The translations under genes were made by a program, and so were the position numbers. Under the pieces are notes generated by a model. That model ran no database searches and was not told where the DNA came from. It worked only from the letters and a program-made list of their open reading frames with translations. 61,925 bases of DNA from Thermodesulfobacteriota bacterium (GTDB taxonomy: Bacteria > Desulfobacterota > Desulfobacteria > Desulfobacterales > Desulfosudaceae), in assembly GCA_040753795.1 (NCBI GenBank), contig JBFMDX010000021.1:7653-69577 (forward strand), in the 5' to 3' direction. Shown in pieces: positions 33,674-53,348 of the stretch. Numbering within the stretch: position 1 is the stretch's first letter; every line of letters begins with the position of its first letter.

Positions 33674-34249
33674 ATGGAAGATACGTTGACTGTATTTACC
33701 GCCAGCAAATACTGCAATGTTTCGCCAAAGACCATCATCAACTGGGTGGATGCCGGGCACATCAAGGCCTATCGGACTATTGGCGGGCACAGGCGCATCA
33801 AGCGAGACGACCTGGAAACGTTTATGCGCAACCAGGGCATCCCCATCCCCCAGGAGAAGGAGGCGGGGGACCGCAAAAAAATCCTGGTAGTGGACGATGA
33901 TCTCATCATCGTCGAGTCAATCGTTCAGGCGCTGGAAGAAGACGAATACAACTACGAGGTCATCTCCGCGTCCGACGGTTTTGAGGCGGGGCTGCAGGTC
34001 AAACACTTCAACCCCGATCTTTTGATTCTCGATATCATGATGCCGGATATCAAGGGGTATGAGGTGTGTAAAAAAATCAAGACCGGCGAGGATACCAAAC
34101 ACATCAAAATCATCGTTCTGTCGGCCTATCTTGATGAAGAGAAATTCAAGCAGATGAAGGAAAACGGAGCGGATGTCTGTTTTTCCAAGCCGCTGCCACT
34201 GCCCAAGCTCAAGGAAGAAGTGGCCAACCTGCTGGGAATGAAAAAATAG
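33674..34249 (+). CDS. Response regulator with N-terminal excisionase/MerR-type HTH
   Basis: 191 residues. Residues 1-55 form a winged-helix of the excisionase/BldC type (VFTASKYCNVSPKTIINWVD, TIGGHRRIKRDDLETF); a linker follows, then a receiver domain (70-190) with acidic pocket VVDDD, phospho-acceptor Asp120 in LLILDIMMP and the conserved Lys in CFSKPLPL. The DNA-binding domain precedes the receiver, the reverse of OmpR/NarL types. It ends 9 nt before the first metF-like gene, so it is a strong candidate regulator of, or at least co-transcribed with, the methylene-THF reductase operon. Confidence 0.92.
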   Translation: MEDTLTVFTASKYCNVSPKTIINWVDAGHIKAYRTIGGHRRIKRDDLETFMRNQGIPIPQEKEAGDRKKILVVDDDLIIVESIVQALEEDEYNYEVISASDGFEAGLQVKHFNPDLLILDIMMPDIKGYEVCKKIKTGEDTKHIKIIVLSAYLDEEKFKQMKENGADVCFSKPLPLPKLKEEVANLLGMKK

Positions 34250-34258
34250 GAGGCGGAT

Positions 34259-35137
34259 ATGAATTTAAGGGATGCGTTGAAAAACAAGATCTTTGTCGTC
34301 ACCTCGGAAGTTCAGTCGCCTCTGGGTGAAGATGATCCTGAAAAGCTGATCGAAAATCTGAAAAAAATAAGAGGCCGGCTGGATGGCGTGTCGGTATCGG
34401 AAATTGAACTGGAAGGGATTGTCGGCGACACCATCAAAACCTGCGACCTGTTGAAGCAGAACCGGTTTAACGCCATTTACCAGACCACCACCCGGGACAA
34501 GAACCGGTTCCAGCTTCAAAAGGACCTGACTCAGGCCAGCGAGGCGGGAGTGGAGAACCTGCTGGTTTTCACCGAAGACTATCGCATATCGGGCGATTCG
34601 CTTCAGGAGACCATGTTCTTTCATGTGGATTCCGGAAAACTGGCGTCGGTGCTGGAGCATCTCAAGGAAGGCCGGACCATCGACGGCAAGGAACTGGCCA
34701 AAAAGATCGACTTTGTGCTGGGTTCCGGCGTGGAAACTCCCGGCGGGAAAAATGTTCCCAAGCAGGGGCTGGAGGAGATGGAAGACATGATGAACGTCGG
34801 CGCCGGCTATTTTCTGACCACGCCGGTGTTTGACCTGGACCAGTTCGAGCGGTTCATGAAACAGGTCAAGGACTTCAACGTGCCGGTCATTGCCGAGGTG
34901 ATGATTTTGCGGACCGCGGGTATGGGCAAGTTTTTGAATCGTCATTTCCGTTCCGGCCTTGTACCGGACTGGGTCATTCAACGGCTCCTGCAGTCGCCGG
35001 ACAAGACCAGGGCCAGCATCGAACTGTTTGCCGAGACGGTCAAAGGGCTGAAGGACCTCTGCCAGGGGGTTCATATCATCACCATCGGCGGTGAAGAAAA
35101 ACTATCCGATTATCTGAATGCCGCCAAACTCAAATAA
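34259..35137 (+). CDS. MetF-like methylene-tetrahydrofolate reductase homologue (first copy)
   Basis: 292 residues, TIM-barrel of the methylene-THF reductase superfamily: FVVTSEVQSPLGEDDPEKL (FAD/folate Glu near the N-terminus), NVGAGYFLTTPVFDLDQFER and PVIAEVMILRTAGMGKFL. It is more divergent than the second MetF at 42071. RBS GGAGG 6 nt upstream. First gene of the six-gene operon. It may be a paralogous subunit rather than the catalytic reductase. Confidence 0.85.
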   Translation: MNLRDALKNKIFVVTSEVQSPLGEDDPEKLIENLKKIRGRLDGVSVSEIELEGIVGDTIKTCDLLKQNRFNAIYQTTTRDKNRFQLQKDLTQASEAGVENLLVFTEDYRISGDSLQETMFFHVDSGKLASVLEHLKEGRTIDGKELAKKIDFVLGSGVETPGGKNVPKQGLEEMEDMMNVGAGYFLTTPVFDLDQFERFMKQVKDFNVPVIAEVMILRTAGMGKFLNRHFRSGLVPDWVIQRLLQSPDKTRASIELFAETVKGLKDLCQGVHIITIGGEEKLSDYLNAAKLK

Positions 35138-35149
35138 GGAAGATCCGAC

Positions 35150-36460
35150 ATGACCAAGGTGCTCGATGTCGATGAACTGGTATGTGAGTTTAAAGAGGAG
35201 GTCCTGGAACGCCTGCCGCAGGCCAATTTCGATCTCTGCCTGACCTGCGGCACCTGCACCGGCGGGTGCCCGGCCTCGGAGCAGTTTGACCTGGATCCCA
35301 GAAAGTTCCTGCGCATGCTGCTCCTGGGAATGGACGATGAGGTCAGGCAAAGTCCCTGGGCCTGGGTCTGCACCATGTGCGCCCGGTGCAAGTTCGCCTG
35401 TCCCATGGACATCGACATTCCCAAGCTGATTTACAATGTACGGGCCTCCTGGCCCCGGGAAAAGCGGCCCAAGGGCATTCGCGGTTCCTGCGATCAGCAC
35501 ATCCGGGCCGGGAACGCCATGGGCGTGTCGTCCGATGATTTCCGGTTTACCATCGAGGACGTGGCCCAGGAGATCCGGGACGAGCATCCGGGGTTTGAGG
35601 ATCTCCAGGTATCGGTCGATCGGGTCGGGGCCAAAATTGCCTTGAACCAGAACTCCCGGGAACCGGTCACGGAACCGGATGAACTGGGCCCGTTGTGGAA
35701 GGTGCTCCATATGGTCGGCGCGGACTGGACCTATCCCACGGTCATGTGGGGCGGCGAGAATTACTGCATGTTTCTGGCCGACGACGAAGGCTGGCGCTAT
35801 ATCATGGAGGAGTTCGTCTATCATGTGGACAATGTTCTGGGGTGTGAGACGGTGGTCAATACCGAGTGAGGGCATTCCTACTTTTCAATCCTGGAAGGAT
35901 TGAGAAAATATCAGATTCCCCACCGCTTCCAGCTGACGACCATCATCGAGCTTTATGCCGAGTGGATCAAAAACGGCACCCTCAAGGTCAATTCCGACTG
36001 GAACAAAGACATCAAAGCCAAGTTTACCATTCAGGACCCCTGCAATATCGGCCGGAAAAGCGGCTCGGACAAAATCGTGGACGATTTGCGGTTCGTGGTC
36101 AAAACCGTGGTGGGGGAGGAGAATTATGTCGAAATGATTCCCAACCGCTCCAACAATTATTGCTGCGGCGGCGGCGGCGGCGCGCTTCAGGGCGGTTATC
36201 CCGATCAGCGGCGGGCGTACGGAAAGGTCAAGTTCGATCAGATCATGGCCACCGGTGCCCATTACGTGATCGCGCCCTGTCATAACTGCCACTCCCAGAT
36301 CGAAGACATGGGCGACCATTACGGCGGTGATTACCATGTGGTCCATCTGTGGACGATCCTCTGTCTGGCCATGGGGGTTCTGGCTGAGAACGAACGCGTC
36401 TATCTGGGACCGGACCTGGCTGACGTCAACATACTTCAAAAGAAGGGACGGGAAGAATGA
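35150..36460 (+). CDS. HdrC-HdrB-like iron-sulfur subunit, predicted selenoprotein (UGA = Sec240)
   Basis: Read through the in-frame TGA at 35867-35869 the product is 436 residues. N-terminal HdrC part: two [4Fe-4S] motifs, CLTCGTCTGGCP (Cys30, 33, 36, 40) and CTMCARCKFACP (Cys74, 77, 80, 84). C-terminal HdrB/HdrD part: a CCG motif with Cys298, Cys338-Cys339 (YCCGGGGG) and CHNC (Cys377, 380). The UGA falls in NTE-U-GHSYFSI, exactly where family members have the Cys of an ECGH motif, and the frame and protein sense continue unchanged after it. A hairpin of SECIS type starts 12 nt later. A conventional caller would report two genes, 35150-35869 and 35900-36460. Its role is electron transfer, probably heterodisulfide-reductase-like chemistry within the methylene-THF reductase complex. 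Confidence 0.88.
35882..35906 (+). promoter_or_regulatory. Predicted bacterial SECIS element of the HdrCB-like gene
   Basis: TTTTCAATCC (35882-35891), apical loop TGGAA, GGATTGAGAA (35897-35906): a 10-bp stem with one G-U pair. The loop Gs at 35893-35894 are 24-25 nt past the UGA, within the range used by bacterial SelB. Confidence 0.8.
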
Positions 36461-39400
36461 CCGACAACGTGACCGGATCGGTACTGGTGGTGGGCGCCGG
36501 GATCGCCGGCATTCAGGCGTCGCTGGACCTGGCCGAATCCGGGTTTCTGGTTTATCTGGTCGACAAGTCTTCGGCCATCGGCGGGAAAATGGCCCAGCTG
36601 GACAAGACCTTTCCCACCAACGACTGCTCCATGTGCATTATCTCTCCCAAACTGGTCGAGGCCGGCCGGCATCTGAATATTGAACTGCTGACCATGGCCG
36701 AGGTGGAGAGCATCTCCGGCCAGGCCGGAAATTTTGCGGTAAAAATCAGAAAGACGGCCCGTTATATCGATCTGAAAAAGTGCACCGCCTGCGCCGAATG
36801 CGCCAAGGTCTGCCCGGTGGAGCTGCCCAATTTGTTCGACGAGAAACTCGGTGACCGGAAAGCGGCTTACAAGCTTTACCCCCAGGCCATGCCCAGCGCC
36901 TTTGCCATAGAAAAGGGCGACCGGGCGCCCTGCCGGCTGACCTGCCCGGCGGGATTGAACGTCCAGGGATACGTGCAGATGGTCAAGACGGGCAAGTACA
37001 AAGAAGCCCTTGAGATCATCATGGAGCAACTGCCGCTGCCCGGCGTGCTGGGGCGGATCTGTCCGCACGAGTGCGAAGACGCCTGCCGGCGGTGCCAGGT
37101 GGACCAGCCGGTGGCCATCCGGGACCTGAAGCGGCTGGCCGCCGACATGGCCGATCCCCGGGAGATTGACATCCCCCGCGCCGAACCACTGGGGAAGAAG
37201 GCGGCCATTATCGGGTCCGGTCCGGCCGGCCTGACGGCGGCTTATCATCTGGCCAAAAAAGGAATCGGGGCGACTGTTTTTGAGGCCCTGCCCCTTGCCG
37301 GCGGCATGCTGCGGGTGGGGATACCGGCCCATCGCCTGCCCCGGGATGTGCTGGACAAGGATATTGAGGTGATCACCCGTCTGGGGGTTGAGATCAAAGT
37401 CAATACGCGCCTCGGCGTCGATTTTACGATTGATGACCTTTTCAAGGATGGCTATGAAGCCGTGTTTCTGGCCATGGGCGCCCATCAGGGCATGAAACTG
37501 GATATTCCCGGAGAAGACCTCGCCGGTGTCCGCCAGGGAGTGGATTTCCTGCGGGAGATGAATCTCTCCGGAACCGCTCCCGTCGGCCGTCATGTGGCCA
37601 TTATCGGGGGCGGCAACGTGGCCATTGACGTGGCCCGGAGCGCGGTGCGCCTGGGCGCGGAAAACGTCCGCATCATCTATCGCCGGACCCGGAAGGAGAT
37701 GCCGGCCTGGGAAGAGGAGATCCAGGCGGCGGAAGCCGAGGGCGTGGAAATCACTTACCTGTCGGCGCCCCTGGAGATCCTGGGAAAAAACGGCAAGGTC
37801 TCCGGCCTCAGATGCATAAAAATGGAACTGGGTGAGCCTGATGCCTCCGGCCGGCGCCGTCCGGTAGCGATTCCCGGCAGCGAATATGAAATCAAAGTCG
37901 ATCAACTCATTCCGGCCATCGGCCAGCGTCCGGATGTTTCCGCGATTGAGCGGATTGCTGGAATCAAAATTTCCCGGGGAGCGACCACGGAAGTCGATCC
38001 CGTTACGTTTGAAACCGGGGCAAAAGGCGTCTTTGCCGGCGGTGACCTGCAGACCGGTCCCGGCGTGGCCATCGGCGCTGTTGCCGCCGGTATGGCGGCG
38101 GCCGAATCCATCTCCCGCTACCTCCGGGGCGAAGACCTGGCCGCGGGGCGGAAACCGGCGATCAAGGAACAGCCCGATTTCCGCCCGGTTCCCGATCATC
38201 CCGTGAAGGAGAACCGCTATCGCACTCGCGAGCTGCCGGTTTCGGAGCGGGCCGGGAATTTCAACGAGGTCGAACTGGGATATGAAGAAGAAGCCGGGAG
38301 GAAAGAAGCCGGCCGGTGTCTCAACTGCGGCTACTGTTCCGAGTGCATGCAGTGCGTGGAGGCCTGCCTGGCCGGAGCGGTCGATCACTTCATGGCGCCG
38401 GAGGAGATCGACCTGCGGGTGGGCGCGGTCATTCTTTCACCGGGGTTTTCGGCCTTTGATCCGGTCAAATATGTCTCCTACGGATACGGGCAGAGTCCGA
38501 ACATCGTCACCAGCCTGGAGTTCGAACGACTTCTGTCCGCCTCCGGCCCCTTCGGCGGGCACCTGGTCAGACCCTCGGATCACCGGGAGCCGGAAAAGAT
38601 CGCCTGGCTCCAGTGCGTCGGTTCCCGCGATATCAACAAGGGAGACCACAGCTACTGCTCCGGGGTCTGCTGCATGTATGCCAACAAGCAGGCGGTGATC
38701 GCCAAGGAACACAGCAAACAGGATCTGGATACGGTCATCTTTTTCATGGACATGCGGACCTACGGCAAGGATTTTGACAAATACCAGATCCGGGCCGAAG
38801 ACGAGAGCGGGGTCCGGTTTGTCCGGTCCAGGATCCACTCTGTTTTCCCCCTGCCCGACGACCGGCTGAGGATCGTCTATGCCACTGAATCCGGCTCCAC
38901 CGCCGAGGAGATCTTCGATATGGTGGTGCTGTCCGTGGGCCTGTCGCCGTGCCAGGACGCCGCCGACCTGGCCCGCAAGATGGGCATAGAACTGAACGCC
39001 CACGGATTTGCCGCCACCCGCAATCTGTCGCCGGTCAGCACGTCCCGGGAAGGCATTTATGTCTGCGGCACCTTCCAGGAGCCCAAGGACATCCCCTTTT
39101 CCGTCATGGAGGCCTCGGCCGCGGCGGCCACGGCTTCCAGCAAACTCAAGTCGGAACGCTGGCGCCTGACCCGGACCCGGGATCTCCCGCCGGAGAAAAA
39201 ATTCGACGGCCAGTCTCCCCGGATCGGGGTGTTTGTCTGCAATTGCGGGATCAATATCGGCGGCGTGGCCGATGTCCCGGCGGTCCGGGATTATGCCGCC
39301 ACCCTGGCCTATGTGGTTCACGTGGAGGACAATCTGTTCACCTGCTCCCAGGACTCCCAGGACCGCATGAAAAAAGTCATCGCGGATAAGGAGCTCAACC

Positions 39401-40893
39401 GGGTGGTGGTCGCCTCCTGTTCCCCCCGGACCCATGAACCGCTCTTCCAGGAAACCATCCGGGATGCCGGACTGAACAAATACCTGTTTGAGATGGCCAA
39501 CATCCGGGACCAGAACACCTGGGTTCACATGGATGATCCGGACAGGGCCACCGCCAAGGCCAAAGACCTGGTGCGCATGGCCGTAGCCAAGGTCGCCTAC
39601 GTGGAGCCGCTGCATCAGGTCAGCCTGGAAATTAAAAAGTCCGTCCTGGTGGTGGGCGGCGGCGTGGCCGGAATGGAGTCGGCCCTGGGCGTGGCCGATC
39701 AGGGATTCGATGCCATCCTGGTGGAAAAGACCGCCGAGCTTGGCGGCGTGGCCCGGTCCCTGAGGGCCACCTGGCAGGGCGAAAACATCCCGGCCTATCT
39801 TGACGACCTCATCGCCAGAGTAAAGGGCAATCCCCGGGTAACCCTGCTCCTGAGCAGCGAAATCACGGCCACGACCGGATCCCTGGGGAATTTTGTTTCC
39901 ACCGTTACCCGGCGGGGTCCGGGAAAAGAAGTGATTACGGTCGAACACGGCGCCACCATCATCGCCACCGGCGGGGCGGAAGACAAACCGGAACAATATC
40001 TCTACGGCCAGCATCCCGACGTTCTGACCCATCTGGACATGGACCAGGCCCTGGCATCGGATGATGCCCGGATCACCGGCGCCAGATCAATGGTGTTCAT
40101 CCAGTGCGTGGGGTCGAGGGACGAAACTCATCCTTACTGCAGCAAGGTGTGCTGCACCCACAGCTTAAAGAGCGCCCTGGAGGTCAAGAAGCGCAATCCC
40201 CGGACGAAAGTGTTTATTCTGTACCGGGATATCCGTTCCTACGGTTTCAGGGAGGACCTTTTCAAGGAGGCCAGACAGAAAGGGGTGCTGTTTATCCGGT
40301 ATGACCTGGAACGGGCGCCCGAGGTGGCCTTGAGCCCGGAAAAGAAATTGACGGTGACGGTCGTCGATCATGTCCTGCAGATTCCCGTCCGGATAAAGCC
40401 CGACCTGCTGGTGCTGGCCTCGGGCATCGTTCCCGGGGACAACAAGCGGCTGTTCGAGCTGTTCAAGGTGCCGGTCAATGCCGAGGGCTTTCTGGTCGAG
40501 GCCCATGCCAAGCTCAGGCCGGTTGATTTCGCCTCGGAAGGCCTTTTCGTGGCCGGCCTGGCCCATTACCCCAAGCCCCTGGAGGAGAGCATCGCCCAGG
40601 CGAGGGCGGCTGTTTCCCGGGCGCTTACGCTTATCGCCAAAGACACCATCATGGTGGGCGGGGTGGTGGCCGTGGTGGACCCGACCCGATGCGCCGTCTG
40701 CCTGACCTGTGTCCGCACCTGTCCTTACGAAATTCCGTATATTCACGAAGACGGCTACGCCGTCATCGAACCGTTTGAGTGCCATGGCTGCGGCGCCTGC
40801 GTGGCCGAATGCCCGGGCAAAGCCATCTCCCTGAAACATTTTACCGATGAGCAGATCAGGGCCAAAACGCACGCTTTATTCGAAGAAGCCTAA
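36457..40893 (+). CDS. hdrA: HdrA-type flavin subunit, duplicated, with inserted glutamate-synthase-like NAD(P)H module
   Basis: 1478 residues. Order: FAD fold VLVVGAGIAGIQASLDLA with NDCSMCIISPKLVEAG; ferredoxin site CTACAECAKVCP (near 112); then a GltD-like insertion (about 155-590) with CRLTCPAGLNVQGYVQMV, CPHECEDACRR and two Rossmann motifs IIGSGPAGLTAAYHLAKKG and IIGGGNVAIDVARSA; the rest of HdrA module 1 with CSGVCCMYANKQAVIAKEH; a second HdrA module from about 920 (VFVCNCGINIGG, VLVVGGGVAGMESALGVADQ, CSKVCCTHSLKSALE); two C-terminal [4Fe-4S] motifs (CAVCLTCVRTCP, CHGCGACVAECPG). HdrA is the flavin subunit of electron-bifurcating heterodisulfide reductases; the GltD-like part should add NAD(P)H oxidation. 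The ATG overlaps the previous stop by 4 bp. Confidence 0.93.
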   Translation: MTDNVTGSVLVVGAGIAGIQASLDLAESGFLVYLVDKSSAIGGKMAQLDKTFPTNDCSMCIISPKLVEAGRHLNIELLTMAEVESISGQAGNFAVKIRKTARYIDLKKCTACAECAKVCPVELPNLFDEKLGDRKAAYKLYPQAMPSAFAIEKGDRAPCRLTCPAGLNVQGYVQMVKTGKYKEALEIIMEQLPLPGVLGRICPHECEDACRRCQVDQPVAIRDLKRLAADMADPREIDIPRAEPLGKKAAIIGSGPAGLTAAYHLAKKGIGATVFEALPLAGGMLRVGIPAHRLPRDVLDKDIEVITRLGVEIKVNTRLGVDFTIDDLFKDGYEAVFLAMGAHQGMKLDIPGEDLAGVRQGVDFLREMNLSGTAPVGRHVAIIGGGNVAIDVARSAVRLGAENVRIIYRRTRKEMPAWEEEIQAAEAEGVEITYLSAPLEILGKNGKVSGLRCIKMELGEPDASGRRRPVAIPGSEYEIKVDQLIPAIGQRPDVSAIERIAGIKISRGATTEVDPVTFETGAKGVFAGGDLQTGPGVAIGAVAAGMAAAESISRYLRGEDLAAGRKPAIKEQPDFRPVPDHPVKENRYRTRELPVSERAGNFNEVELGYEEEAGRKEAGRCLNCGYCSECMQCVEACLAGAVDHFMAPEEIDLRVGAVILSPGFSAFDPVKYVSYGYGQSPNIVTSLEFERLLSASGPFGGHLVRPSDHREPEKIAWLQCVGSRDINKGDHSYCSGVCCMYANKQAVIAKEHSKQDLDTVIFFMDMRTYGKDFDKYQIRAEDESGVRFVRSRIHSVFPLPDDRLRIVYATESGSTAEEIFDMVVLSVGLSPCQDAADLARKMGIELNAHGFAATRNLSPVSTSREGIYVCGTFQEPKDIPFSVMEASAAAATASSKLKSERWRLTRTRDLPPEKKFDGQSPRIGVFVCNCGINIGGVADVPAVRDYAATLAYVVHVEDNLFTCSQDSQDRMKKVIADKELNRVVVASCSPRTHEPLFQETIRDAGLNKYLFEMANIRDQNTWVHMDDPDRATAKAKDLVRMAVAKVAYVEPLHQVSLEIKKSVLVVGGGVAGMESALGVADQGFDAILVEKTAELGGVARSLRATWQGENIPAYLDDLIARVKGNPRVTLLLSSEITATTGSLGNFVSTVTRRGPGKEVITVEHGATIIATGGAEDKPEQYLYGQHPDVLTHLDMDQALASDDARITGARSMVFIQCVGSRDETHPYCSKVCCTHSLKSALEVKKRNPRTKVFILYRDIRSYGFREDLFKEARQKGVLFIRYDLERAPEVALSPEKKLTVTVVDHVLQIPVRIKPDLLVLASGIVPGDNKRLFELFKVPVNAEGFLVEAHAKLRPVDFASEGLFVAGLAHYPKPLEESIAQARAAVSRALTLIAKDTIMVGGVVAVVDPTRCAVCLTCVRTCPYEIPYIHEDGYAVIEPFECHGCGACVAECPGKAISLKHFTDEQIRAKTHALFEEA

Positions 40894-40911: not shown

Positions 40912-41340
40912 ATGACGGAAACTTTTGAGCCCAGAATTATCGCCTTCTGCTGTCAGTATTGAGCGTACGCAGCCGGGGACCTGGCAGGTTCCATGCGACT
41001 TTCTTACCCCGCGGCCGTCAGGGTGTTTCAGGTGCCGTGTACCGGACGGGTCGACATCATTCATCTGCTCAACGCCATCGAGGACGGGGCCGACGGCGTT
41101 TACGTGGCCGGATGCCTGGAAGGGGAGTGCCACTACCGGACCGGCAATCTGAAAACCGCCAGAAAAGTGGCGTACGTGAAAAAAATTCTGAAGGATATCG
41201 GCCTGGAGCCGGAACGGGTGGAGATGTTCAACCTTTCCTCGGCCCAGGGACAGCGGTTTGCCGAGATCGCCCGGGAGATGGTGGAAAGAATAAAAGTCAT
41301 CGGTCCTTCGCCGCTCCGGGTGAACAAGGCGGCCGCCTGA
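40912..41340 (+). CDS. mvhD: MvhD-type [2Fe-2S] subunit, predicted selenoprotein (UGA = Sec17)
   Basis: ATG at 40912 with TGGAGGAG 6-7 nt upstream. The frame reads MTETFEPRIIAFCCQY, then UGA (40960-40962), then AYAAGDLAGSMRLSYP, giving 142 residues. In MvhD/FlpD proteins this region is FCC-x-x-C with the Cys at the UGA position. Further cluster Cys are 43 (VPCTGR), 68 and 73 (GCLEGECHY). MvhD passes electrons between HdrA and a partner (hydrogenase or dehydrogenase). Selenocysteine forms of this subunit are known in some archaea and bacteria. A SECIS-like hairpin follows. A conventional caller would start the gene at 40993 and lose the N-terminal cluster ligands. Confidence 0.9.
40976..40992 (+). 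promoter_or_regulatory. Predicted bacterial SECIS element of mvhD
   Basis: GGGACCT (40976-40982), loop GGC, AGGTTCC (40986-40992): a 7-bp stem with one G-U pair. The loop Gs are 21-22 nt past the UGA. Confidence 0.75.
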
Positions 41341-41384: not shown

Positions 41385-42074
41385 ATGATCGTTGCCGATC
41401 GCAAACCCATGGAAGAGCTGCTGGCCATGGCCTCGCCGTTTGCCAGCATCCTCCTGGTCGGTTGCAAGGGATGCGTTACCGTCTGTAACGTGGGCGGCGC
41501 CAAGGAGGTGGAGATTTTGGCCGCCGCCATGAGGATTGCCAGGAAAAAAGATGGGCAGCCGCTGAATATCGATACCCGGGTGCTGGAAAGGCAGTGTGAC
41601 CGGGAGTATGTCGAACAGTTGCGGGAGGACGTCAATAACTATGAGGCGGTGTTCTCCATGGCCTGCGGCGTGGGGCCGCAGTTCCTGTCCGAGATGTACC
41701 CGGACCGGCGTTTCTTCCCGACGGTCAACACCACCTTCTACGGCGGCGCCGTTCGTCACGGGGTCTGGGAGGAGCGGTGCGCCGGCTGCGGTACCTGTAT
41801 CATTCACCGGTTCGACGGGTTATGTCCCATCGCCCGGTGCGCCAAAAGCCTTCTGCACGGTCCCTGCGGCGGATCTTCCGGCGGCGTTTGTGAAGTGTCC
41901 AAAGAGACCGAATGCGTCTGGGACACCATCGTGAAAAAGAAGATGGCCCACGGACGTCTGGCGGATCTGCTGCAGGTGCAGGACGCCAGGGATTGGCGCA
42001 CGGCCAGGGACGGCGGTCCCCGGCGGAGCATCCGGGAAGAGCTGATCCAAAACCCACAAGGAGAGACCCCATGA
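41385..42074 (+). CDS. metV: MetV-type methylene-THF reductase partner (zinc/Fe-S)
   Basis: 229 residues. Carries VGCKGCVTVCNVGGAKEVE, the signature of the methylene-THF reductase C-terminal (MetV) family, and the Cys-rich CAGCGTCIIHRFDGLCPIA and LLHGPCGGSSGGVCEVS. In acetogens MetV partners MetF. It overlaps metF by 4 bp (ATGA). Confidence 0.93.
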   Translation: MIVADRKPMEELLAMASPFASILLVGCKGCVTVCNVGGAKEVEILAAAMRIARKKDGQPLNIDTRVLERQCDREYVEQLREDVNNYEAVFSMACGVGPQFLSEMYPDRRFFPTVNTTFYGGAVRHGVWEERCAGCGTCIIHRFDGLCPIARCAKSLLHGPCGGSSGGVCEVSKETECVWDTIVKKKMAHGRLADLLQVQDARDWRTARDGGPRRSIREELIQNPQGETP

Positions 42075-43009
42075 CGGAATATAAATCAGGCAGTAATCTG
42101 GAAAAGGTGCTGAAAGCCGGGCATTTTGCCTTTACCGGCGAATGCGGTCCGCCCAAGGGCGCCAACGTGGACCATCTGACCAGAAAATTCGGCTACCTGA
42201 AAGGCAAGGTCGATGCCGTCAATATCACCGACAACCAGACGGCCGTGGTGCGCATGTCCAGCCTGGCGGCCTCCCATATCATGATTCACGAGGGGCTGGA
42301 GCCGAATTTCCAGATGGTCTGCCGGGACCGCAACCGGCTGGCCCTGACCAGCGACATCCTGGGCGCCTATGCCCTGGGCATCCGCAATATCCTGTGCCTG
42401 TCCGGCGATCATCAGACCTTCGGCAATCATCCCCAGGCCAAGAACGTGCACGATATCGACTCCATGCAGCTCATCCGGCTGGTGACTAAAATGAGGGATG
42501 AGGGAAAATTCATGAACGATAAAGAAGAGGCGATCGACGGCCCGCCGAAGATGTTCGTCGGCGCCGCCTGCAATCCCTTTGCCGACCCCTTTGAATACCG
42601 GGTATACCGCCTGGCCAACAAAATCGCCGCCGGCGCCGATTTCATCCAGACCCAGTGCATTTTCAACATGGACAAGTTCCGCCAGTTCATGAAAATGGCG
42701 GTGGATATGGGGCTCCATGAAAAATGTTATATCCTGGCCGGGGTAACGCCCATGAAGAGCGCCGGCATGGCCAACTTCATGAAAAAAAACGTTCCCGGCA
42801 TGGACATTCCGGACGCGCTCATCAAACGACTAAAGGGCGTGGACAAGGCCGCCCAGCCGGAAGAGGGCATCCGCTTCGCCCTGGAACAGATCAAAGCGTT
42901 CAAGGAGATGGAAGGCGTTGCCGGCGTTCATCTGATGGCCATCGAATGGGAGGAAAAGGTCCCGGAAATCGCCGAACGTGCCGGCATGCTTCCCCGGCCG
43001 GCGGTGTAA
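42071..43009 (+). CDS. metF: Methylene-tetrahydrofolate reductase (second MetF copy)
   Basis: 312 residues from the ATG overlapping the metV stop. TIM-barrel with AFTGECGPPKGANVDHL (catalytic Glu), VNITDNQTAVVRMSS, NILCLSGDHQTFGNHPQAK (FAD/folate site) and GADFIQTQCIFNMDKFRQF. Reduces methylene-THF to methyl-THF, the last step of the methyl branch of the Wood-Ljungdahl pathway (or its reverse). As last gene of the operon with metV directly before it, it is the likely catalytic reductase, with electrons supplied or removed by the Hdr/MvhD proteins. Confidence 0.95.
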   Translation: MTEYKSGSNLEKVLKAGHFAFTGECGPPKGANVDHLTRKFGYLKGKVDAVNITDNQTAVVRMSSLAASHIMIHEGLEPNFQMVCRDRNRLALTSDILGAYALGIRNILCLSGDHQTFGNHPQAKNVHDIDSMQLIRLVTKMRDEGKFMNDKEEAIDGPPKMFVGAACNPFADPFEYRVYRLANKIAAGADFIQTQCIFNMDKFRQFMKMAVDMGLHEKCYILAGVTPMKSAGMANFMKKNVPGMDIPDALIKRLKGVDKAAQPEEGIRFALEQIKAFKEMEGVAGVHLMAIEWEEKVPEIAERAGMLPRPAV

Positions 43010-50192: not shown

Positions 50193-53100
50193 ATGACTCG
50201 TTCTTACTATGCCGGTTTTGACGTCGGCAGCAGCGCCGTTCATTATGCCGTCATTGACGGCTCCGGTGCCGTGGCCTACTCCGCCCGTCCGTTCATGCAT
50301 TTCGCCGACCCTATCAGCGCCATCCGCCGGGCCTGGGCCGATGTCGTCGGCCGGTTCCCGCGTGACACCATCCAGGCGACCGCTTTTACGGGCAGCGGCG
50401 CGGAATTTTTTCCGGAGGTCATGCCCGGCGCGGTCTGTCTTTATGACAGCGTCAGCATTCCTGCCGGGGCCATCATTCTGAATCCGGAGGCGGAATGCGT
50501 CATCCATATCGGCGCCAAGGACGCTTATTTCTTCCGGCTTCGCCGGCTGCAGGATCGGACGATTTTGCAGGATTGGAAAGCCGGTTCCAAATGCGGCGGC
50601 GGAACCGGGACCCTGATCCAGAAACAATGCCGGCGCCTGTTTCAAAATGAAGTCGCCGGTGTCGATCCGGAAAAATCCGGGGGCCTGGACGCGAATCAAC
50701 GGGAAAGCGCCCAGGACCGCCGGGCCGACCTGCTCCAGGAGATGGACGAAGCCATCCTGGCAGCCGCGGAAAAAGAGGCGGCCAGGTCTTCATCGCCCAG
50801 TGAGTTTCTGGCCCGCTGCGGCGTGGTCATTCAGTCGGATTTGATCCACAAGCAGAACGAGGGTGCCAACCGGGCGGATAACCTGGCCGGTCTTTTCCGG
50901 ACCGTGGCCCGTAATTACAAAATCGACGTCATGGGCAATGAGTCCCTGCAAGGCCGCCGGGCCATGGCCACCGGCGGCGTTGTCGCCAATAAGCTGGTGC
51001 TCGGGGCCCTGTCTGAATTTCTCGACGTGGCGCTTGCCCGGCCGGAAGGGTACCAAAACGTGGGGGCCATCGGCGCGGCTGCCGCGGCCAGGGAACGAAA
51101 CAGCGATTTTGTCTTCACGCCCGGCCAGCTTGAGTCGGCCCGGGAATATGGACGGCGGCAGCGCAAATACACCGAGCCGCTTTATCATCATCTGGACCGG
51201 GTCAGGATAATTGAGCCAAACCGTAAGGATGAAACCCTGGCCGGCCGGGAGATCGTCATCGGGATCGACGGCGGCAGTACCACCACCAAGGGCGCTCTGG
51301 TCGATCTCTCCTCCGGCCGGTTACTGGATAAACTCTACATCAAAACCCACGGAGACCCGGAAGGCAGCCTGAAAAAAGTAATACGGTATCTGGGCCGCCA
51401 CCAGTCGGACGTGATCGTCAGGGGCATCGGCGTCACCGGATCGGCCCGCAAGCTGTACGAGAAAATTCTTATCAGCCGGAAACGGGCCGAGGAGTTGAAG
51501 AAGAACGGCCGGGCGGTCGTCGACCGGGTGACGGATGAGATCACCTGTCACGCCCTGGGCGTACAATATTATAATCCGGGTATCGATACTATTTTTGAGA
51601 TCGGCGGCCAGGACATGAAGTTCACCACCTTCAATACCGAGACCGGGGCCGTGCGTAACGCCAAGATGAATTACAGTTGCCAGGCGGGCTCCGGCCAGAC
51701 CATGGAAAATATGGCCGACCTGATCGGGCTGGATGTCACCTCCACCCTTCAGGACTACGCCCTGCGGGCCGAGCGGGTGCCGATTATCGACGCCACCTGC
51801 GGCGTCTTCATGGAAATGGACGAAAACCGGCTCATTGCCGAGGGGTTCTCCCGGGAAGAGATCGCGGCGGCCATCGTGCGGGGGACCGCGGCCAGTTATT
51901 TTTACAAGTTTGTCGGCGGGGCCCAGCAGGTTGGCGAGTCCTGTTCGGCCCAGGGCGGGCCCTGTCTGGGCGATGCGTTTCTGGCCGCCCTGAGCCAGGT
52001 CACCGGCAGGACCCTGTACGCCTATCCCGACCGGGAGATATTCGGCGCCTGGGGCGCGGCCCTGGATGTGATCCGGGAGATTCAGTCCCTGGAGAAAGAA
52101 GGCGGCGCTGCCTGGGATACCGCCTTCCGGGGCTGGTCGGTGATGGATATGCCCTTTGACAAAAATAAAAGAAGCTGCCGGGAAGTCTTCGGCAGCCAGT
52201 CCTGCGGAATCAGGGATTGCGGGCTTCATCTTTTCAAGATCGGCGAGGAAACCATTATCAGCAACGGGTTCTGCCCCCGGGGAAACTCGGAGGCCACCGG
52301 CAAGCCCCGGCCCAATTACGTGGATATTTATCATTCCGTTTACGAAAAGCATTTTAAACGATACGGTTCCCTGCTGAACGGAACACCGTCCGCGGGCACG
52401 ACCATCGGCGTGCGTCGCAGCACCTCCACCCTGGGCCCGAAGGGCATCTGGAGCGCCGCCCTGCTGGCCGGCCTGGGCCTGCATCCGGTGGTTACACCCC
52501 GAAGCGATCAGCAGATCGCCCGGATCGGTGTGGACCATTCCCAGACCAGTTTCTGCATTGCCCGCAAGCTGGCCACGGGTCACGCCAAGGTGCTGGCGGA
52601 TCATCCCGGGATAAAACTCCTCTATAATCCGGCCTTTGTCGAGGTGGCCGGTGATCCCAGCCTGAAATACTGCGTCTACACCGAATCCGAACCCTACCTG
52701 ATCAACGGCGAACTGGCCCTGGATAAAGAGCGGCAGATCCTGCCGGTCCTGGAGTTCGGCGAACCGGAGGCCCTGATCGAGACCTTCATCAGGGAGTTCC
52801 GGCGCCTCGGCCTGGCCATTGACCGCCGCCGGATGAAACGGGCCCTGGCCCGGGCCGACGCCGCCGAAGCGGAGTTCCTCCGGGAACTGGCCGGGCTGGG
52901 GGATAAATTCCTGGCCCGGACCGCCGGGGAAATCGCCTATGTGGGCGTGGGCCGGGACTACGTGGTTCTTGATCCCGAGGCCAGTTCCAATTCCGGCAGC
53001 ATGTTCGCCGCCCTGCGCGGGCTGCACTATCTCCCGCAGATTTTCCTGCATCACCGCTATCAGCATCTGTCCATTCACGATATGGCGAAAAATGAATACT

Positions 53101-53348
53101 GGGTGGAGAGCGTCGATATCCTCAAGGCCCACCGGTTTATCGCCGGCAGCGCCAATCTGTTTCCGGTGCGCATGATGAATTTCGGCTGCGGGCCGGACAG
53201 CATGAAGCTGTTTCAGGAAGACCGGTTCCAGGAACGGGCCGGCAAGCCCATGCTGACCCTGCTGACGGACGCCCAGACCAATAACGCGCCGTTTGTCACC
53301 CGGACCGAGGCCTTCGAGCGGGTGGTCGGGGGGGTCTATCATGGCTGA
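50193..53348 (+). CDS. Large double BadF/HgdC-type ATPase (acyl-CoA dehydratase activase-related)
   Basis: 1051 residues. Two ASKHA ATPase domains: YAGFDVGSSAVHYAVIDG (residues 3-20) with KCGGGTGTLIQKQC, and IGIDGGSTTTKGALVDL (near 355) with EIGGQDMKFT, NYSCQAGSGQTMENMADLIG and CGVFMEMDENRLIAEG. A DUF2229-type region follows (CREVFGSQSCGIRDCGLHLF, CPRGNSEATGKPR, DHSQTSFCIARKLA). Activases of this family hydrolyse ATP to inject a low-potential electron into an Fe-S dehydratase or double-cubane protein; the Cys of the ATPase halves normally hold a bridging [4Fe-4S]. The partner follows with an 8-bp overlap. Substrate unknown. Confidence 0.9.
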   Translation: MTRSYYAGFDVGSSAVHYAVIDGSGAVAYSARPFMHFADPISAIRRAWADVVGRFPRDTIQATAFTGSGAEFFPEVMPGAVCLYDSVSIPAGAIILNPEAECVIHIGAKDAYFFRLRRLQDRTILQDWKAGSKCGGGTGTLIQKQCRRLFQNEVAGVDPEKSGGLDANQRESAQDRRADLLQEMDEAILAAAEKEAARSSSPSEFLARCGVVIQSDLIHKQNEGANRADNLAGLFRTVARNYKIDVMGNESLQGRRAMATGGVVANKLVLGALSEFLDVALARPEGYQNVGAIGAAAAARERNSDFVFTPGQLESAREYGRRQRKYTEPLYHHLDRVRIIEPNRKDETLAGREIVIGIDGGSTTTKGALVDLSSGRLLDKLYIKTHGDPEGSLKKVIRYLGRHQSDVIVRGIGVTGSARKLYEKILISRKRAEELKKNGRAVVDRVTDEITCHALGVQYYNPGIDTIFEIGGQDMKFTTFNTETGAVRNAKMNYSCQAGSGQTMENMADLIGLDVTSTLQDYALRAERVPIIDATCGVFMEMDENRLIAEGFSREEIAAAIVRGTAASYFYKFVGGAQQVGESCSAQGGPCLGDAFLAALSQVTGRTLYAYPDREIFGAWGAALDVIREIQSLEKEGGAAWDTAFRGWSVMDMPFDKNKRSCREVFGSQSCGIRDCGLHLFKIGEETIISNGFCPRGNSEATGKPRPNYVDIYHSVYEKHFKRYGSLLNGTPSAGTTIGVRRSTSTLGPKGIWSAALLAGLGLHPVVTPRSDQQIARIGVDHSQTSFCIARKLATGHAKVLADHPGIKLLYNPAFVEVAGDPSLKYCVYTESEPYLINGELALDKERQILPVLEFGEPEALIETFIREFRRLGLAIDRRRMKRALARADAAEAEFLRELAGLGDKFLARTAGEIAYVGVGRDYVVLDPEASSNSGSMFAALRGLHYLPQIFLHHRYQHLSIHDMAKNEYWVESVDILKAHRFIAGSANLFPVRMMNFGCGPDSMKLFQEDRFQERAGKPMLTLLTDAQTNNAPFVTRTEAFERVVGGVYHG

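Follow-up and report, generated by a model that had tools for sequence, protein, structure and literature searches.

A predicted selenocysteine-containing HdrC–HdrB-type subunit encoded among metF, hdrA::gltD, mvhD and metV genes in a Thermodesulfobacteriota bacterium

The DNA analysed here, designated as the window, is a stretch of 61,925 nucleotides from a Thermodesulfobacteriota bacterium (assembly GCA_040753795.1, contig JBFMDX010000021.1, positions 7,653 to 69,577 of the forward strand). It contains a row of genes in the order response regulator, metF, hdrCB, hdrA::gltD, mvhD, metV and metF, which recurs in the clade of the window gene (the window clade). The features are listed in Table 1. 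The open reading frame at 35150–35869 and the open frame behind it form one frame with the TGA at 35867–35869 as the sole interruption, as an earlier note on this DNA had described, and read-through from the ATG gives a protein of 436 residues (...VVNTE-U-GHSYFSILEGL...) that ends at the TGA 36458–36460. The note had placed a second segment at 35900–36460; the frame is correct but the start is not, because the sequence is open already from 35870 and position 35900 is the first TTG.

Table 1 Features of the hdrCB locus, in positions of the window.
Feature	Position	Strand	Basis or remark
Response-regulator-like gene	33674..34249	+	Domain name from sequence reading; conserved upstream at window-clade loci reaching this far
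First MetF-like gene, Pfam MTHFR, 292 aa	34259..35137	+	Pfam
AAGGAAG, possible ribosome-binding site, 7 nt before ATG 35150	35136..35142	+	Sequence read directly; function inferred
hdrCB-like predicted selenoprotein gene, 436 codons	35150..36460	+	ORF list, translation, domain scan, family alignment
In-frame UGA read as selenocysteine (Sec240)	35867..35869	+	TGC or TGT in 34/111 homologues
SECIS-like hairpin core, 7 pairs (35886-35892 with 35896-35902), loop GGA	35886..35902	+	Folding, alignment covariation
HdrA-like gene with inserted GltD/NAD(P)-binding part (HdrL-like), 1478 aa; ATG overlaps hdrCB stop	36457..40893	+	ORF, domain scans
mvhD (FlpD), second predicted selenoprotein, UGA 40960-40962 in FCCQY-U-AYAAGD	40912..41340	+	Domain scan, read-through
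MetV-like gene, Pfam DUF5981 (methylene-THF reductase C terminal)	41385..42074	+	Pfam
Second MetF gene, Pfam MTHFR	42071..43009	+	Start inferred from overlap with metV stop; ORF listed from 41912

The deduced protein consists of an HdrC-type ferredoxin half (Cys30, 33, 36, 40 and Cys74, 77, 80, 84) fused to an HdrB-type CCG half. The Pfam domains Fer4_17 (two-cluster ferredoxin, residues 30–89) and CCG (residues 293–384) both scored over their cut-offs, and the protein is therefore an HdrC–HdrB fusion; together with the homologues described below, this agrees with the HdrCB-like subunit of the earlier note. The best NCBIfam matches were HmcF (182.9 bits), TmcB (177.6 bits) and DsrK (120.8 bits). 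Since these scores are far below the respective cut-offs of 750, 735 and 400 bits (the last an equivalog cut-off), the protein is a relative of HmcF, TmcB and DsrK, and none of the three. The HdrB model gave 28.6 bits against a cut-off of 345; HdrB requires two complete CCG motifs, and here the C-terminal motif alone (Cys298, Cys338, Cys339, Cys377, and Cys380) is complete.

The state of codon 240 was examined in homologues from 58 genomes (relatives and the organism's own genome). Named genomes were scanned as well, with 42 loci as the result, and 80 stretches were retrieved, one of them for tRNA-Sec. A tblastn search yielded 122 matches across the site, which with the window included and identical proteins merged became 118, and 111 of these scored over 480 bits. 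Among the 111 distinct close homologues, codon 240 is TGA in 77, TGC in 26, TGT in 8, and any other codon in none, where the loci were taken from the best-scoring matches and the ratio of 77:34 is not a frequency in nature. Both states that a homologue search might have returned, Cys and U, were thus found and nothing else, which supports the proposal that selenocysteine replaces the cysteine of an ECGH motif. One TGA gene with an extra in-frame stop upstream (L097) is counted in the 77 and was excluded from the hairpin set and the tree, leaving 76; two partial Cys genes (L080 and L082) are included in the hairpin comparison (36 Cys genes) and lie outside the 111 and the tree. Five more distant relatives used as an outgroup (L161–L165, also outside the 111) are 33–37% identical and all carry TGA in the motif PE-U-GHA. 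Two of these five show two TGA codons, the second of which is perhaps the terminal stop. A broader sample of 148 genomes of the phylum gave matches at E ≤ 1e-80 in 41, and a TGA occurs somewhere inside 44 of the 59 matches listed, with any position counted.

A sequencing error at 35867–35869, in which TGC or TGT would have been misread, was rejected because TGA stands at the same codon in 76 other genes. It is also highly improbable that translation ends at the UGA, with two separate polypeptides encoded at the locus or the gene in decay. An open reading frame with a TTG start can be drawn mechanically downstream of the UGA (35900–36460), but the 34 Cys homologues run continuously through codon 240 as one gene, and TGA occupies this codon in 77 of the 111 homologues while TAA and TAG do not occur. 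Substitutions between the window gene and a homologue (L041) at codon positions 1, 2 and 3 number 33, 20 and 99 upstream of the UGA and 23, 17 and 78 downstream. This third-position bias on both sides indicates that both halves are under protein-level selection, which argues against a stop or a pseudogene, as do the covarying hairpin behind the UGA and the selenocysteine machinery of the genome. Split genes and a pseudogene were rejected on the homologues, the protein-level conservation, and the hairpin covariation.

Bacterial SECIS elements are hairpins located shortly downstream of the UGA with a G in the apical loop. In the window gene, a hairpin core starts 16 nt after the UGA, and the stem extends to 10–11 bp with the loop GGA. 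All seven core pairs are formed in 74 of the 76 Sec genes vs 1 of the 36 Cys genes, and G is present at the first loop position in 76/76 Sec genes. Of the core pairs in the 70 distinct rows from the 76 Sec genes, 99.6% are formed; 54 cells of the 70 rows are changed on both sides, mainly at pairs 22:34 and 26:30, and the covariation score was reached by none of 500 shuffles. RNAalifold recovered the same seven pairs unprompted. Under a null model of synonymous codons, the mean was 4.3 of 7 pairs vs 6.97 observed, and the window's own 7/7 pairs were reached in 1.8% of its draws. The z-scores of the window hairpin folded alone are weak (−2.4, −1.6, and −1.0, depending on which of three sets of ends was chosen), so that the case for the hairpin rests on the alignment. 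In a scan of the entire window for TGA codons with an open frame of at least 60 codons after, at least 15 before, and a hairpin behind, the UGA at 35867 had the longest stem (11) among 18 candidates. At gathering cut-offs, a tRNA was the sole Rfam hit in the whole window. The SECIS-like hairpin at the right distance and with a G in its loop, which had been noticed in the single sequence, is thus corroborated by conservation and covariation in the Sec genes. A Cys homologue (L057:10721-10756) still forms 7/7 core pairs and may carry a remnant or a precursor of the hairpin.

The genome encodes SelA, SelB, SelD and tRNA-Sec (75.1 bits against a cut-off of 47 bits), and all four of selA, selB, selC and selD, whose absence would have spoken against recoding, are therefore present. 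SelD (360 bits; own genome C2:321613-322539, L083) has an in-frame TGA of its own and is probably itself a selenoprotein. A second Sec copy of HdrCB (L158, own genome C4:219511-234764), which is 53% identical, is located directly upstream of selB; hdrA, mvhD and met genes were looked for near this copy and none was found. We conclude with high confidence that 35150–36460 represents a functional selenoprotein gene of the HdrC–HdrB type with UGA 240 recoded as selenocysteine; decoding would be performed by SelB and tRNA-Sec with the hairpin. As judged from the sequence comparisons, the gene apparently broken by a stop almost certainly specifies a single selenium-containing electron-transfer protein.

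A phylogenetic tree was constructed from 115 rows (76 Sec, 34 Cys, and 5 outgroup) with the site masked. The Sec label requires 4 changes and the Cys label 5 on this tree; when the tree is limited to the 94 rows whose context is known, 4 are required. The window gene lies inside a starred set of 20 genes (19 Sec and 1 Cys) that adjoins two Cys genes. The single Cys gene within the set (L089, G029:C83:150-15424) has lost the hairpin (fold of −1.5 kcal/mol) while its mvhD keeps the UGA, and it is likely a reversion from Sec to Cys inside a Sec clade. The presence of Cys in the same type of operon indicates that Sec is not essential. Cultured organisms of the clade, namely Desulfocicer vacuolatum (L051), Desulfamplus magnetovallimortis (L043) and Desulfatitalea alkaliphila (L053), all have TGA at this codon. 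Just outside the starred set, L057 has Cys, yet 7/7 pairs.

To place Sec240 in the fold, HdrCB was modelled with AlphaFold2 (mean pLDDT 79.3, pTM 0.83). The model matched EtfD with a Z-score of 23.7 over 359 residues and HdrB with Z-scores of 19.1–19.9 over 246–254 residues. The alignments with PDB entries used a profile built from 17 family members together with DsrK and the HmcF-like protein of the same genome. When the family was compared by hhalign with two HdrB proteins of this genome, the signal was insufficient to position the N-terminal half, and this half of HdrB was left unaligned by MAFFT as well; the placement of Sec240 therefore rests on the PDB profile alignments. A PDB search with the DsrK of the same genome gave nothing useful. 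In EtfD, five cysteines (637, 672, 673, 709, and 712) and His583 ligate the noncubane cluster D2, and Cys503, Cys538, Cys581 and Cys584 are the ligands of a linear [3Fe-4S] cluster D1 (PMC13083937). Cys298, Cys338, Cys339, Cys377 and Cys380 of HdrCB align with the five D2 cysteines in this order, and Sec240-Gly-His242-Ser243 aligns with EtfD Cys581-Pro-His583-Cys584. The motif Cys(Sec)-Gly-His stands unchanged in each of the 19 rows, including DsrK and the HmcF-like protein of the same genome. The claim that the stop occupies the position of a cluster cysteine in HdrD/DsrK-like proteins thus holds in part: CGH is kept in these two proteins, but the half-site has few of the canonical cluster cysteines. 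HdrCB probably keeps a noncubane cluster with its histidine, and Sec would be located beside it in a reduced N-terminal CCG site. The His ligand of EtfD is said to render the cluster non-catalytic (PMC13083937), which would fit electron transfer and not disulfide cleavage in HdrCB.

The alignments bear on whether Sec240 is itself a cluster ligand. It might bind the noncubane cluster, perhaps exchangeably like the bridging Cys81 of HdrB, or an additional small cluster located in the N-terminal CCG site, in which case selenium would tune a cluster and there would be no free selenol; we regard this as a possible but less than even prospect. Cys81 and Cys234 of HdrB are described in the EtfD paper as bridging cysteines that are displaced by the substrate (PMC13083937). 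In a single one of the five printed PDB alignments, that to 5odc_B, Sec240 falls on Cys81, the second, bridging cysteine of the CxxC motif, and EtfD builds its linear [3Fe-4S] cluster in the same site (PMC13083937). The other four alignments, two of which are to closely related HdrB chains, put Sec240 on the first cysteine of CxxC, the match that we favour, and Ser243 replaces Cys584 of EtfD. Cys206 is a further invariant cysteine of the domain in the family alignment and might serve such a cluster, but it is Gly or Ala in DsrK, the HmcF-like protein and two outgroup Sec proteins, all of which keep U/C-G-H.

The genes surrounding hdrCB suggest a function. The gene set of the Hdr-type methylene-THF reductase (hdrC, hdrB, hdrA, mvhD, metV, and metF) is encoded together here. 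The hdr genes lie between two different MetF-like genes, of which the first, scoring 70 vs 146 bits for MTHFR, is perhaps a divergent variant. The UGA of mvhD is followed by a 7-bp hairpin at 40976–40992 (z of −0.7 when folded alone), and 12 of the 13 window-clade matches across the site have the TGA. In the exception (L088), MvhD carries Cys and HdrCB carries Sec, the reverse of L089 with Cys in HdrCB and a UGA in mvhD. Near the 18 window-clade Sec loci other than the window, 7 of which have short flanks, MetF was found in 18, HdrA in 17, MvhD in 13, and MetV in 11; MetF is also near the Cys gene L089. One locus (L053) was without MvhD, MetV and the second MetF in the 11 kb downstream. Further along the window, positions 50193–53348 encode a large protein that combines BcrAD/BadFG ATPase and DUF2229 domains in the manner of CoA-enzyme activases.

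Outside the window clade, MetF is encoded near 27 of the 57 other Sec genes and 0 of the 33 other Cys genes; HdrA is nearby in 24 of these 33. When short contigs were counted only if positive, 47 of the 69 Sec genes counted had MetF or MetV nearby, compared with 1 of 25 Cys genes; with full flanks only, the values were 29 of 51 Sec genes (window included) vs 1 of 25 Cys genes. The tree offers only four independent Sec/Cys pairs for this association, too few for significance. The other 22 Sec genes with full flanks, including the second copy L158, have no MetF or MetV nearby, and the HdrCB subunit is therefore not tied to methylene-THF reductase. DsrK and an acetyl-CoA synthase domain were found over their cut-offs in the genome, so the organism is likely a sulfate reducer with the Wood-Ljungdahl pathway.

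Selenium in this kind of subunit has been described before. The earlier note called it little described, but an Fe-S oxidoreductase (GlpC) family already appears in a selenoprotein list of 2006, and a 2026 review lists the Fe-S oxidoreductase GlpC with the motif UGH (PTHR43551, WP_174406253.1) among largely uncharacterised families (PMC13188914). A Sec-containing Fe-S oxidoreductase and heterodisulfide reductase are listed for a marine deltaproteobacterium (PMC8318568), and Desulfobacterium autotrophicum HRM2 has the selenocysteine proteins HdrD4 and HdrF2, the former reported in 2009 (PMC2702500). HdrCB has U240-G-H and both the CCG and Fer4_17 domains, and we set it beside COG0247/WP_174406253.1 by description. 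The published accounts of GlpC (COG0247) share with the window Sec in UGH, an origin in Deltaproteobacteria and neighbouring hdrA and frhD/mvhD genes; their five-gene operons carry frhG-frhA, whereas the window has metF, metV and the HdrA::GltD fusion. HdrD4 and HdrF2 are likewise Sec proteins of the HdrC–HdrB type from a sulfate reducer with the acetyl-CoA pathway, although HdrF2 has transmembrane parts (PMC2702500).

The Hdr-type methylene-THF reductase HdrCBA-MvhD-MetVF of Sporomusa ovata and Moorella thermoacetica has the same gene set, and in Sporomusa pull-downs HdrA and HdrB bound MetF (PMC9430772). The window differs from it by Sec in HdrCB and MvhD, while the string "selen" is absent from the main text of that report (PMC9430772). 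In the Chloroflexi genome DscP3, an hdrABC-mvhD-metVF cluster contains an hdrC fused to hdrB beside mvhD and metVF, with two metV/metF sets, but the Sec passages shown concern formate dehydrogenases and mention no Sec in hdrCB (PMC5736913). EtfD of Mycobacterium smegmatis (PDB 9ojn) matches best in fold across the HdrC and HdrB parts, and its D2 ligands have counterparts in HdrCB; it differs in its membrane helices, heme b and linear [3Fe-4S] cluster D1, and HdrCB has Sec for Cys581 and Ser for Cys584 (PMC13083937). DsrK, HmcF and TmcB, of which DsrK and the HmcF-like protein of the same genome share Cys(Sec)-Gly-His, are set apart by the low scores of HdrCB. HdrCB thus fits the GlpC selenoprotein family, and with this family, HdrD4 and the fused hdrCB of DscP3 published earlier, it is not new as a kind. 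What is added here is a conserved block of Sec hdrCB with hdrA::gltD, mvhD (UGA), metV and metF, resembling a Hdr-type methylene-THF reductase. Among the literature matches listed, none combined Sec in HdrCB with a metF/metV neighbourhood, which is weak evidence of novelty.

From the gene order, it seems fairly likely that HdrCB forms a methylene-THF reductase assembly of an acetyl-CoA-pathway sulfate reducer with HdrA::GltD, the Sec protein MvhD, MetV and MetF, in complex with MetVF. Electrons would move among the HdrA flavin, the pair of cubane clusters in the HdrC half, and a single noncubane [4Fe-4S] cluster whose ligands are Cys298, Cys338, Cys339, Cys377 and Cys380 and probably also His242. 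Sec240 beside this cluster may act as a redox-active residue or an exchangeable ligand that gates electrons to or from MetVF, and this role is proposed only tentatively. Equally speculative is the overall picture of a selenium-dependent methylene-THF reductase complex with two selenoproteins (HdrCB and MvhD) that would serve the acetyl-CoA pathway's methyl branch in this clade of sulfate reducers, in which Sec240 would gate electrons between a bifurcating HdrA and MetVF beside a His-capped noncubane cluster.

Annotation that is blind to recoding would split the hdrCB gene or label it a pseudogene. The context described here ties a largely uncharacterised selenoprotein family to the candidate partners HdrA, MvhD, MetV and MetF. 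The natural pair of Sec (L088) and Cys (L089) proteins in one type of operon makes it possible to test what selenium does next to a noncubane cluster.
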